Source: Parvibaculum sedimenti (lineage in GTDB: Bacteria > Pseudomonadota > Alphaproteobacteria > Parvibaculales > Parvibaculaceae). Taken from it: a stretch of DNA of 64,000 bases. Numbering within the stretch: the first letter of the stretch is position 1; each line of letters opens with the position of its first letter. The stretch is taken from NCBI RefSeq assembly GCF_009184905.1, contig NZ_WESC01000017.1, forward strand, positions 1-64,000, read 5' to 3'. Position numbers and translations under genes: made by a program. The notes under the pieces are model-generated. The model was given only the letters and a program-made list of their open reading frames with translations, was not told the origin of the DNA and searched no databases. Below, one piece after another: positions 36,216-40,649 of this stretch.

Positions 36216-37406
36216 ATGGGCGCGCCCGTCCCTTTCAAGATCGACATCCCGCAATCTGCGATCGACGCCATTCTGGCCAAGGTCCGCGCCTATGAATGGC
36301 ATGAGATGCCCGAGATCGCGCCGGGTGCTGACCGCTGGGCCTACGGCACCGACATGGAATACATGAAGGAGCTTTGCGCCTACTGGACGAGCGCCTTCGA
36401 CTGGCGGAAGGCAGAAGCGGCACTCAACCGCTTTCCGCAATTCAAGGCGACGGTGGACGGCCAGGAAATACACTTCATTCACGTGAAAGGTTCCGGCGCC
36501 AATCCCGAGACGGTGCTGCTGACGCATGGCTGGCCGGGCTCGGTCTTCGAATTCTGGGACGTGATCGAACCGCTCGCGCACCCGGAGAAATTTGGTGGCA
36601 AGGCGGAAGACGGCGTGAACCTCGTCGTGCCTTCCCTTCCCGGCTACGCCTTCTCCGGCAAGCCGAAAAAGCCCATCGGCCCGAAGGGCACCGCCGCTCT
36701 CTGGGACAAGCTCATGCGCGAGGTGCTGGGCTACAATGACTACATCGCGCAAGGTGGCGACTGGGGCGCGGTCGTGACCGGCTATATCGGCCTCAACCAT
36801 TCGCAGGCGAAGGGCGGCGGCTGCAAGGCGATCCATCTCAACATGTTCGGCATTCGCGGCGCCTTCGCCCCCGAAACGCCGGAAGAGAACCAGTGGGCCG
36901 CGGGCGCCGCACTCAACTTCGAACTCGAAGGCGCCTATCTGCGCCTGCAGATGACGAAGCCGCAGACGCTTTCCTACGGCATGATGGACAGCCCCGTGGG
37001 CGCCGCCGCCTGGATCATCGAGAAGTTCAACACCTGGTCGGACCGCCGCGGACCGGACGGCAGGGAGTTCATCGAGAACGCCTTCACCAAGGACCAGCTT
37101 CTCACCAATGTGATGATCTATCTCGTCACCCGCACCTTCAATACCGCGACATGGTTCTATCGCGGCATGTTCGAAGAGGGCGGCACGAACATTCCCGCAG
37201 GCGAGAAAGTTGAGGTGCCGACGGGCATCGCCAATTTCCCGAAGGAGTTCATGCCCTTTCCGCCGCGCAGCATGGTCGAGAAGAGCTTCAATGTTGCCCG
37301 CTGGGCGAGCTTCGAGCATGGCGGCCATTTCGCGGCCATGGAAACGAAGTCCGTCTTCGCCGATGAAGTTCGCGTTTTCGTCAACCAGGTGAAGGCGGGC
37401 TCATGA
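36216..37406 (+). CDS. Epoxide hydrolase with EHN domain, copy 1
   Basis: This alpha/beta-hydrolase has 396 residues. The N-terminal EHN domain (about 5-110) shows FDWRKAEAALNRFPQF. The oxyanion motif HGWPGS lies near residue 107. The nucleophile is Asp182 in GGDWGA and the catalytic His371 sits in GGHFAAME. Enzymes of this set open epoxides to diols, as microsomal and juvenile-hormone epoxide hydrolases do. Its last codon overlaps the next gene by 4 bp, so the two copies are co-translated. The substrate is unknown. Confidence 0.92.
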   Translation: MGAPVPFKIDIPQSAIDAILAKVRAYEWHEMPEIAPGADRWAYGTDMEYMKELCAYWTSAFDWRKAEAALNRFPQFKATVDGQEIHFIHVKGSGANPETVLLTHGWPGSVFEFWDVIEPLAHPEKFGGKAEDGVNLVVPSLPGYAFSGKPKKPIGPKGTAALWDKLMREVLGYNDYIAQGGDWGAVVTGYIGLNHSQAKGGGCKAIHLNMFGIRGAFAPETPEENQWAAGAALNFELEGAYLRLQMTKPQTLSYGMMDSPVGAAAWIIEKFNTWSDRRGPDGREFIENAFTKDQLLTNVMIYLVTRTFNTATWFYRGMFEEGGTNIPAGEKVEVPTGIANFPKEFMPFPPRSMVEKSFNVARWASFEHGGHFAAMETKSVFADEVRVFVNQVKAGS

Positions 37407-38605
37407 CACATCGCATCGTCCCCGCTGATCCGTTCAAGATTCACGTGCCGGAGGAGGAGCTTCAGGACCTGAGGCGACGCCTCCAGCGCACCCGCTTTCC
37501 CAACGAGCCCTTGGGCAACGAGCATTGGGCCTATGGCACGAGCCTTCCTTACATGGAGCAGCTCGTCGGGGTGTGGCGTGACGATTTCGACTGGCGGAAG
37601 CAGGAAGAAGCGCTCAATCGCTTTCCGCAATATCGCGCGACGCTGACCGACGCGGATGGAGAGGATCACGAAATTCACTTCATCTATGAATGCGGCTCGG
37701 GCGAAAATCCCGTGCCGCTTATCCTCACCCATGGCTGGCCCTCGACCTATCGGGAGTTTCTCGATGTCGTCGATCCGCTGGCGCATCCCGAGAAATACGG
37801 CCGCCAGGGCCCGGCCTTCGACATCATCGTGCCGTCGCTCATCGGTTACGGATTTTCCTCGAAGCCGCGCATTCCAATTGGCCCTGCCGCCATCGCCGAT
37901 CTCTGGCACCGGCTGATGACCGAGGTGCTGGGCTATGACAAATATGCGGCACAAGCGGGCGACTGGGGCAGCTTCGTTACGTCGCGCCTCGCGCTGCAGC
38001 ATGGCGAAAGCCTGCTCGGCATTCACCTCACCATGCTGCCTCTGCGCCCTCACCTCAAACATGCCTCGCAACCGCCGGTGAGCGAGGAAGAGGGCCGCTG
38101 GATAAAGGAAATGCAGAACTGGTGGCGGCAGGAGGAAGGCTATCGCTCGATCCAGTCCACCAAGCCGATGGCGCTCGCCTTCGCGCTGATGGACAGCCCC
38201 GCAGGCCTCGCGGGCTGGCTCGCCGACAAATATTACCGCCTCGGCGACACCGACAAGACCGACACGACGGAAGGCATGATCGCTCGCTTTCCCTTCGACA
38301 CGATCCTGACCCAGCTCTCGATCTACTGGTTCACGGGCACGATCAACTCGGCGAATACGCTCTACAAGGCGGGTCCGGCCGAAGGTTCGGCCTCGCTCAA
38401 GGCGGGCGAAAAGGTGACGGTTCCCACCGCCTATTCGGAATATCCGATCGACACGCTACCGCTCACGCCACGCTCATGGGCCGAGCGCAGCTACAATATC
38501 GTCCGCTGGCGGATCATGAAAAAGGGCGGCCATTTCGCCGCCATGGAGGAACCGGCGCTTTTCGCGGATGACGTCCGTGACGCGTTCCGCGAGATGGGTC
38601 TCTAA
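37403..38605 (+). CDS. Epoxide hydrolase with EHN domain, copy 2
   Basis: This second epoxide hydrolase has 400 residues and the same architecture as its upstream neighbour. It has an EHN domain with FDWRKQEEALNRFPQY, HGWPST in the oxyanion loop, nucleophile Asp187 in AGDWGS, and GGHFAAMEE with the catalytic His. The shared motifs point to an old tandem duplication, but the lid regions differ, which suggests different substrates and not a dosage copy. It is coupled to copy 1 by a 4-bp overlap, and its end lies 20 bp from the convergent accA stop. Confidence 0.92.
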   Translation: MTHRIVPADPFKIHVPEEELQDLRRRLQRTRFPNEPLGNEHWAYGTSLPYMEQLVGVWRDDFDWRKQEEALNRFPQYRATLTDADGEDHEIHFIYECGSGENPVPLILTHGWPSTYREFLDVVDPLAHPEKYGRQGPAFDIIVPSLIGYGFSSKPRIPIGPAAIADLWHRLMTEVLGYDKYAAQAGDWGSFVTSRLALQHGESLLGIHLTMLPLRPHLKHASQPPVSEEEGRWIKEMQNWWRQEEGYRSIQSTKPMALAFALMDSPAGLAGWLADKYYRLGDTDKTDTTEGMIARFPFDTILTQLSIYWFTGTINSANTLYKAGPAEGSASLKAGEKVTVPTAYSEYPIDTLPLTPRSWAERSYNIVRWRIMKKGGHFAAMEEPALFADDVRDAFREMGL

Positions 38606-39584: not shown

Positions 39585-39856
39585 CGCGCTCCGGAAGTCC
39601 CGCTTTTCCGCCCTGGAAACGCCCGGGCGGCACCCCTTAGACAACGATCCTTTTGTCAGGATTTGCGCGGCACACTGGCTTGAGAGAGGCCCATTGTCAA
39701 CCGCAAGAGCCCGCTTCGGCTTCTCCACCCGCCCCTTTGGTAAACGCCGCCGCTCTCCCTGTCACAGATCAGAGGCGCCATACGTCCTCTGGGCAAGGCG
39801 GAACCCCAACTGACGCTGGGTCAGGCAAAGACCGCCGGGAGACCTAGGGAAACCCA

Positions 39857-40237
39857 ATGTCGACCAATCAATTTGCCGCCCGCACGGGCCAGTCCAGCCG
39901 GGCCGGATTGAAGCGATTCCTGATCGCGCTTGCAGGGCTCGGCCTTTTCGCAAACGCCCTTTTCATGCTGGCCGATCCGCTCGGCTGGTATGGCGCGGTG
40001 GAGGGCGTGCCGGACACCGGCCCCTTCAACCCCCATTTCGTCCGCGACATCGGCGTGTCCTTTCTGACGGCTGCGTTGACAATGGCCGCCACCGCCCGCT
40101 GGCTGCGCCTCGCATGGCCGCTGTTGTGCACCGTAACCATCTATCTCGGCCTGCATGCGCTTCTCCACCTCTGGGACGTCGCGGCAGGCCGCCTGCCGCC
40201 AGATCGTCAGCCGTGCGCGCCGTCGCGTGTCGCATGA
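39857..40237 (+). CDS. Small membrane protein, C-terminal end altered
   Basis: This protein of 126 residues has three or four hydrophobic segments and the conserved-looking loop ADPLGWYGAVEGVPDTGPFNPHFVRDIG. I have no function for it. Up to about residue 113 (LHLWDVAAGR) it reads as a coherent membrane protein. The last 13 residues (from LPPDRQPC) come from DNA that in another frame encodes a sigma-factor fragment. So the natural C-terminus is probably lost. ATG 39857 has AGGGAAA upstream. Confidence 0.7.
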   Translation: MSTNQFAARTGQSSRAGLKRFLIALAGLGLFANALFMLADPLGWYGAVEGVPDTGPFNPHFVRDIGVSFLTAALTMAATARWLRLAWPLLCTVTIYLGLHALLHLWDVAAGRLPPDRQPCAPSRVA

Positions 40238-40649
40238 AAGGCCGCGCTTCGAAGCGAGCCCCGCCGATCATGCGCGGCTCGCCCGCGCCTTCGCCGCAGC
40301 GCTGACAAAGGAAGACCCGCAGGCCCTTCTCGCCTCGCTGCGCGAAGACGCGATCTTATATTCGGATGGCGGCGGGCGCGTTCCGGCGGCGCTCAACCCG
40401 ATTTACGGCGCAGACCGGATCATGCGCTTCTTCTTCGGCATCTCGAGAAAATTTCCCGAGCCCTACGCCATCGACTTCATCCGCATCAATGGCATGCCCG
40501 GCTGCACGCTCAGCATCGGACGCCAGATCACTTCGATGGTGAGCTTCGATATTCGCGACGGGCTTATCGCCGAAATCTACATCATGCGAAATCCGGACAA
40601 GATCGCCCGTGCGGCACAAGCCCTCGGACGGCCGCTTCTCGGCGCCTAG
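40180..40649 (+). pseudogene. 5'-truncated ECF41-type (SigJ-like) sigma factor remnant
   Basis: From about 40185 the frame encodes QAACRQIVSRARRRV, the recognition-helix end of sigma region 4.2, and then HERPRFEASP. A SnoaL/NTF2-like domain follows with YSDGGGRVPAALNPI and the closing MRNPDKIA motif. This is the C-terminal half of an ECF41 sigma factor. Region 2 and most of region 4 are missing, and the upstream sequence belongs to the membrane protein in another frame. An ATG at 40155 could give a 164-residue product, but as a sigma factor it is dead. A free SnoaL-like product is possible. Confidence 0.75.

Follow-up and report, generated by a model that had tools for sequence, protein, structure and literature searches.

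Sigma factors of the ECF41 group, the SigJ type represented by the family models TIGR02957 and NF007214, combine sigma regions 2 and 4 with a C-terminal SnoaL-like domain that carries the motifs SDGGG and NPDK. According to the accessible part of the work of Wecke and others (PMC3426412), these factors belong to COE operons, the promoter sequence TGTCACA-N16-CGTC is the ECF41 signature, and the COE genes are the sole targets detected. The SnoaL part is reported to contact YVGPWLPEP, a motif of the linker that joins region 2 to region 4 (PMC7730460, accessible part). The locus considered here lies in a window of 64,000 nucleotides, the whole stretch of DNA analysed, from Parvibaculum sedimenti; the window genome is a 3.70-Mb assembly of 41 contigs, rated 100% complete with 0.4% contamination, and the locus is on contig C9. 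With the COE operons it shares the promoter, and with the ECF41 factors the C-terminal domain with SDGGG and NPDK; the CMD-like gene with a CxxC motif, retained by intact relatives, is gone, and with it the COE neighbour (CMD, oxidoreductase or epimerase) of such operons. Unlike ECF41 factors, the window has no sigma region 2, no linker and hardly any of region 4. SigJ of Mycobacterium tuberculosis (PDB 5xe7) aligns with what is left and is whole, whereas the remnant is not. A further difference from the COE operons is an extra small membrane-protein gene that leads the operon in most congeners. This arrangement is very probably the scar of one deletion that removed about 1.19 kb from a self-regulated ECF41 operon of three genes.

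Two overlapping open frames on the forward strand hold the remains (Table 1). The first, of 126 residues in the list of open reading frames, is matched by congener membrane proteins up to residue 114-117 and is 74% identical to the protein of the congener G015, with which the window is grouped in the tree (support 100). By hydropathy, the truncated product lacks the hydrophobic segment that comes last in the G015 protein. An earlier note on this DNA had let the membrane protein read well until about position 40185; the frame was correctly chosen, while the break itself has to be placed slightly further on, within 40188-40200. The second frame, in another reading frame, extends from 40155 to 40649 (164 residues), and from residue 9-11 onward it corresponds to the C-terminal part of an ECF41 sigma factor. 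It matches NF007214 at 7e-42 (profile positions 144-289 of 293) and TIGR02957 at 4.5e-40 (137-279 of 281), in both cases under the whole-protein cut-off, as expected because only half a protein is present. Identity to the G015 sigma factor is 67% (E 1.0e-62), and the SigJ chain is matched over residues 145-298 (E 1.5e-11). Pfam SnoaL_2 stays below its cut-off of 27 bits on the remnant (21.8 bits, 3e-4), and likewise on the intact G015 protein (16.6 bits). In the latter, Sigma70_r4_2 covers residues 129-179 while the remnant starts at the equivalent of residue 165-166, so that of region 4 only about the last 14 residues are left; region 2, the bulk of region 4 and the linker motif have been deleted. 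The C-terminal SnoaL-like domain retains SDGGG as well as NPDK, the latter found in 101 of 103 compared sequences, the window included. The search of the remnant against ECF41 proteins, which the earlier note had recommended, thus bears out its reading of this part as the end of region 4 followed by a SnoaL domain with both motifs.

Table 1. Features of the broken ECF41 operon (positions in the window)
Feature	Position	Strand	Basis
ECF41-type promoter of the former operon, TGTCACA-N16-CGTC	39760..39786	+	Exact match in window genome
Truncated small membrane protein gene (126 aa, ATG 39857 to TGA 40237); native sequence ends within 40187-40200, and the tail beyond it is out of frame and stops at TGA 40235-40237	39857..40237	+	Open reading frame, alignment with 21 congener proteins, hydropathy
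Deletion junction GCCGCCTGCCGCC; fits either ancestral arm (microhomology possible)	40188..40200	+	Column counts, 20 congeners
Remnant of the ECF41 sigma gene: last part of region 4 and SnoaL-like domain, original start missing	40188..40649	+	NF007214, TIGR02957, G015 identity, 5xe7
GTG in the remnant frame, just 5' of the membrane-frame stop; the most plausible candidate for a coupled start (no Shine-Dalgarno by eye)	40227..40229	+	Read from the sequence

The ancestral state can be seen in the relatives. In a protein search of 27 Parvibaculum genomes, the window genome included, the remnant was matched in 24, namely the window genome and 23 congeners with one match each, and all 23 congener matches lie inside open frames of 306-641 residues. 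The three genomes without a match are incomplete (71, 84 and 57%); in the 84% one, G022, the contig stops inside the operon. This locus, interrupted by the contig end, was added to the 23 for comparison, which gives 24 congener loci. In 20 of the 24 a membrane gene, a CMD-like gene and a full ECF41 sigma gene follow each other in this order, flanked by accA and xerD (for G007, accA falls outside the stretch taken). Over all loci, accA was matched in 23 of 24, the exception being G007, where the stretch taken begins close to the operon, and xerD also in 23 of 24, all except G022. The middle gene of G015 encodes an AhpD/CMD-like protein of 184 residues with a C-G-P-C motif, which scores 19.9 bits against CMD (PF02627) with a gathering cut-off of 23. 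The G015 sigma protein exceeds the cut-offs of both family models (342.8 over 323.25 for TIGR02957, 344.2 over 271 for NF007214). One internal deletion joining two adjacent same-strand genes was what the earlier note had proposed. Its suggested comparison with relatives, carried out here in congeners, upholds the deletion, with the uncut order in 20 of 24 loci and no trace of the missing pieces found in the rest of the assembly; the word adjacent has to be given up, since a CMD-like gene lay between the two. Lost in the deletion would be the last part of the membrane gene, the CMD-like gene in full, and the sigma gene up to and including the greater part of region 4.

As one observation that would refute its reading, the same note had named a short SnoaL protein of this kind, conserved in relatives. 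This candidate is ruled out: the 23 congener matches are all full sigma genes in frames of at least 306 residues, and in a wider genome scan (80 loci kept of the 144 relatives found, locus L021 among them being the G003 record) sigma and SnoaL parts lie in one single frame at all 80 loci.

For the position of the break, 20 congeners having both arms were compared with the window in register by column counts. The base at 40187 is that of the membrane arm in 20 of 20 congeners and of the sigma arm in 1 of 20; at 40201 the membrane arm agrees in none of the 20 and the sigma arm in all. Across the 13 intervening columns, GCCGCCTGCCGCC, 6-20 membrane arms and 12-20 sigma arms share the base of the window. 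The length equivalent to the deletion ranges from 1112 to 1188 bp over the 20 congeners and is 1188 bp by G015. Presumably, the deletion joined short direct repeats, one in each of the two outer genes. Counting against this, the identical run between the arms of any one intact congener amounts to only 2-9 bases in register, and because of this a 13-nt microhomology is something that we infer for the direct ancestor. Deletions between short direct repeats occur in bacterial genomes, and the break in the window likewise lies inside a short stretch that fits both arms; there is nothing unusual in this. The locus is a genuine, clear-cut example of an operon that one deletion has broken, a new instance of an ordinary kind of gene decay. 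It is not described in the titles or abstract openings of the papers found on ECF41 and SnoaL, TGTCACA, ECF41 pseudogenes or Parvibaculum sigma factors.

The promoter of the operon has been left untouched upstream of the scar. The exact motif is present at 22 of the 24 congener loci and at 45 of the 80 genome-scan loci, and at none of either set with the control motif (reversed, 0/24; 0/80); G013 and G010 lack it, a point to be set against the favoured explanation. With a spacer of 15-17 bases, the pattern has three matches in the whole window genome and its backwards control one. Thus the operon's own promoter survives while its ECF41 sigma factor is gone, and none was found in the genome to read it. 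The operon is probably dead by now, because the sigma factor that would read this promoter has lost region 2 together with all but the end of region 4.

Of the two further matches, one is exact (C23:118098, L140), lies over the end of an open reading frame on the opposite strand with no obvious gene downstream by eye, and is probably due to chance; the third, at C1:131887, has a 15-base spacer.

Whether the leftovers are decaying was approached from several sides. No stop interrupts the 154 codons of the SnoaL frame, 30 of which are one step from a stop. Among columns conserved at 95% the window is altered in 1 of 15, and 25 of the 102 other sequences have as many alterations or more; at 90% conservation it is altered in 1 of 20, and 41 of the 102 have as many. 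In this wider sequence set no decay of the SnoaL frame is seen at conserved columns. In the comparison restricted to the genus, the window differs from the conserved residue at 2 of 39 columns of the SnoaL part, the junction residue accounting for one, and at 2 of 33 of the membrane part; up to three such differences occur in other congeners in either part. Compared with the G015 branch, the branch leading to the window is longer for the SnoaL part (0.82 versus 0.52) and for the membrane part (0.90 versus 0.49), and not clearly longer for the neighbouring genes (accA 0.33 versus 0.28, xerD 0.26 versus 0.43), which is a hint of loosened constraint on both remnants. Selection was assessed under a branch model, in which the tree was kept fixed and the lengths of its branches were scaled from those just given. 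On the window branch, which spans time before as well as after the deletion and has a great length (t between 0.9 and 2.3 in the four genes, close to saturation at synonymous sites), omega of the SnoaL part is 0.29 against a background of 0.16 (p=0.12; against 1, p=0.016), with 0.155-0.180 on four control branches, and omega of the membrane part is 0.14 against 0.12 (p=0.67; against 1, p=7e-6). The open, conserved frame and these omega values fit a recent deletion, and they also fit continued use. As the SnoaL frame is without clear decay, the simplest reading is therefore that the deletion is recent; a SnoaL domain still in use is less likely. The shortened membrane protein and the SnoaL tail would then be non-functional remains of a recent event.

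It could be imagined, as the earlier note did, that the liberated SnoaL domain still acts in trans. The remnant would be translated from the ATG at 40155 or by coupling at the GTG at 40227, and would act on another sigma factor or serve as a stand-alone NTF2-like ligand binder. Its open and conserved frame, the omega below 1 over the whole window branch and the intact ECF41-type promoter upstream all speak for this. Yet no cognate partner was found. A search of the window genome with the full sigma protein returned, apart from the remnant, two generic ECF genes with 35% and 33% identity; Sigma70_r4_2 has seven matches in this genome, two of which resemble ECF41 weakly, and a second ECF41 factor was not found. 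The DNA pattern for GPWLPEP, the core of the linker that the SnoaL part would contact, is present at 21 of 23 congener loci having the sigma gene and has no exact match in the window genome (16 matches with two mismatches, against 19 for the control). Furthermore, no Shine-Dalgarno sequence precedes either start by eye, and a free-standing SnoaL form was seen in none of the 23 congener matches and 80 other loci. Within the accessible part of PMC3426412, the words 'in trans' occur solely in the reference list. Action in trans is thus unsupported, and we consider it very unlikely. Slightly less likely still is a fuller version, in which the deletion gave birth to a one-domain protein: of the sigma factor only a free SnoaL domain that binds a ligand would be left, with a different sigma factor transcribing it from the ECF41-type promoter that remains, and with its translation coupled to that of the shortened membrane protein.

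The recent deletion that we favour would not be real if the assembler had collapsed 1.2 kb and the operon were intact in the organism. The junction, a short GC-rich stretch that fits both arms, is the kind of place that lends itself to this idea, but with at most about 13 nt the shared stretch is short for a collapse. Misassembly would be expected to leave the lost pieces somewhere, and they were found nowhere else: the N-terminal part of the sigma factor did not appear elsewhere in the genome in the search with the full protein, the CMD-like gene is absent by protein search (best match E 0.137), and on no other contig of this complete and hardly contaminated assembly were the missing genes found. 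An artefact is accordingly very improbable indeed. That both frames are chance open frames in GC-rich DNA is ruled out by the E-values of 1e-62 to an intact sigma factor and about 1e-40 to the family models, even though many spurious long open reading frames surround the locus.

If the deletion is accepted, the window locus is a natural knock-out of a regulator that is present in 23 of the 26 other Parvibaculum genomes searched. In the lineage of the window, at least, ECF41 control would accordingly seem to be dispensable. For annotation, it should be noted that both labels that the tail might receive, SnoaL-like protein or sigma factor, are misleading. Together with congeners that keep the sigma gene and lack the membrane and CMD-like genes, the window forms a small natural series for probing the role of the operon.

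Other losses have been encountered in the genus. In G014 (L113) and G019 (L114), which are grouped in the tree, the ECF41 promoter and the sigma gene are present and the membrane and CMD-like genes are absent; the content of the operon seems, with these loci, to have changed more than once within the genus. At the G041 locus (L136, on the reverse strand, about 2250-2500 after turning), the loss differs from that in the window: there is no membrane gene, and of the CMD-like gene only the end remains, approximately two thirds being missing from its start; the promoter and the sigma gene have been kept.

The small membrane protein is of some interest in itself. Within the genus it has the invariant motifs HFVRDIG and LHxxLHxWD. 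A comparison of 22 members with Pfam gave no clear family, the best E-value being 0.013 to DUF6790, which was matched by seven members at E up to 0.1, and with the same limit NCBIfam gave no match for the window and G015 proteins. Hypothetical proteins in ECF41 operons, of which this membrane family may be one, are mentioned in a figure legend in the accessible part of PMC3426412. The protein recurs beside ECF41 genes at 15 of the 80 genome-scan loci, 13 of which have the CMD-like gene too. Apart from L021, the loci with the membrane protein next to the sigma gene are L030, L032, L036-L040, L046, L051, L071, L083, L084, L097 and L099. They belong to several Alphaproteobacteria and, weakly, to one Arenicella genome bin, and at two Sphingomonas loci the membrane protein gene is situated 3' of the sigma gene. 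Elsewhere in the window, at 36216-38605, there are two tandem epoxide-hydrolase-like genes, the second assigned by Pfam EHN (9e-34) and the first by eye.
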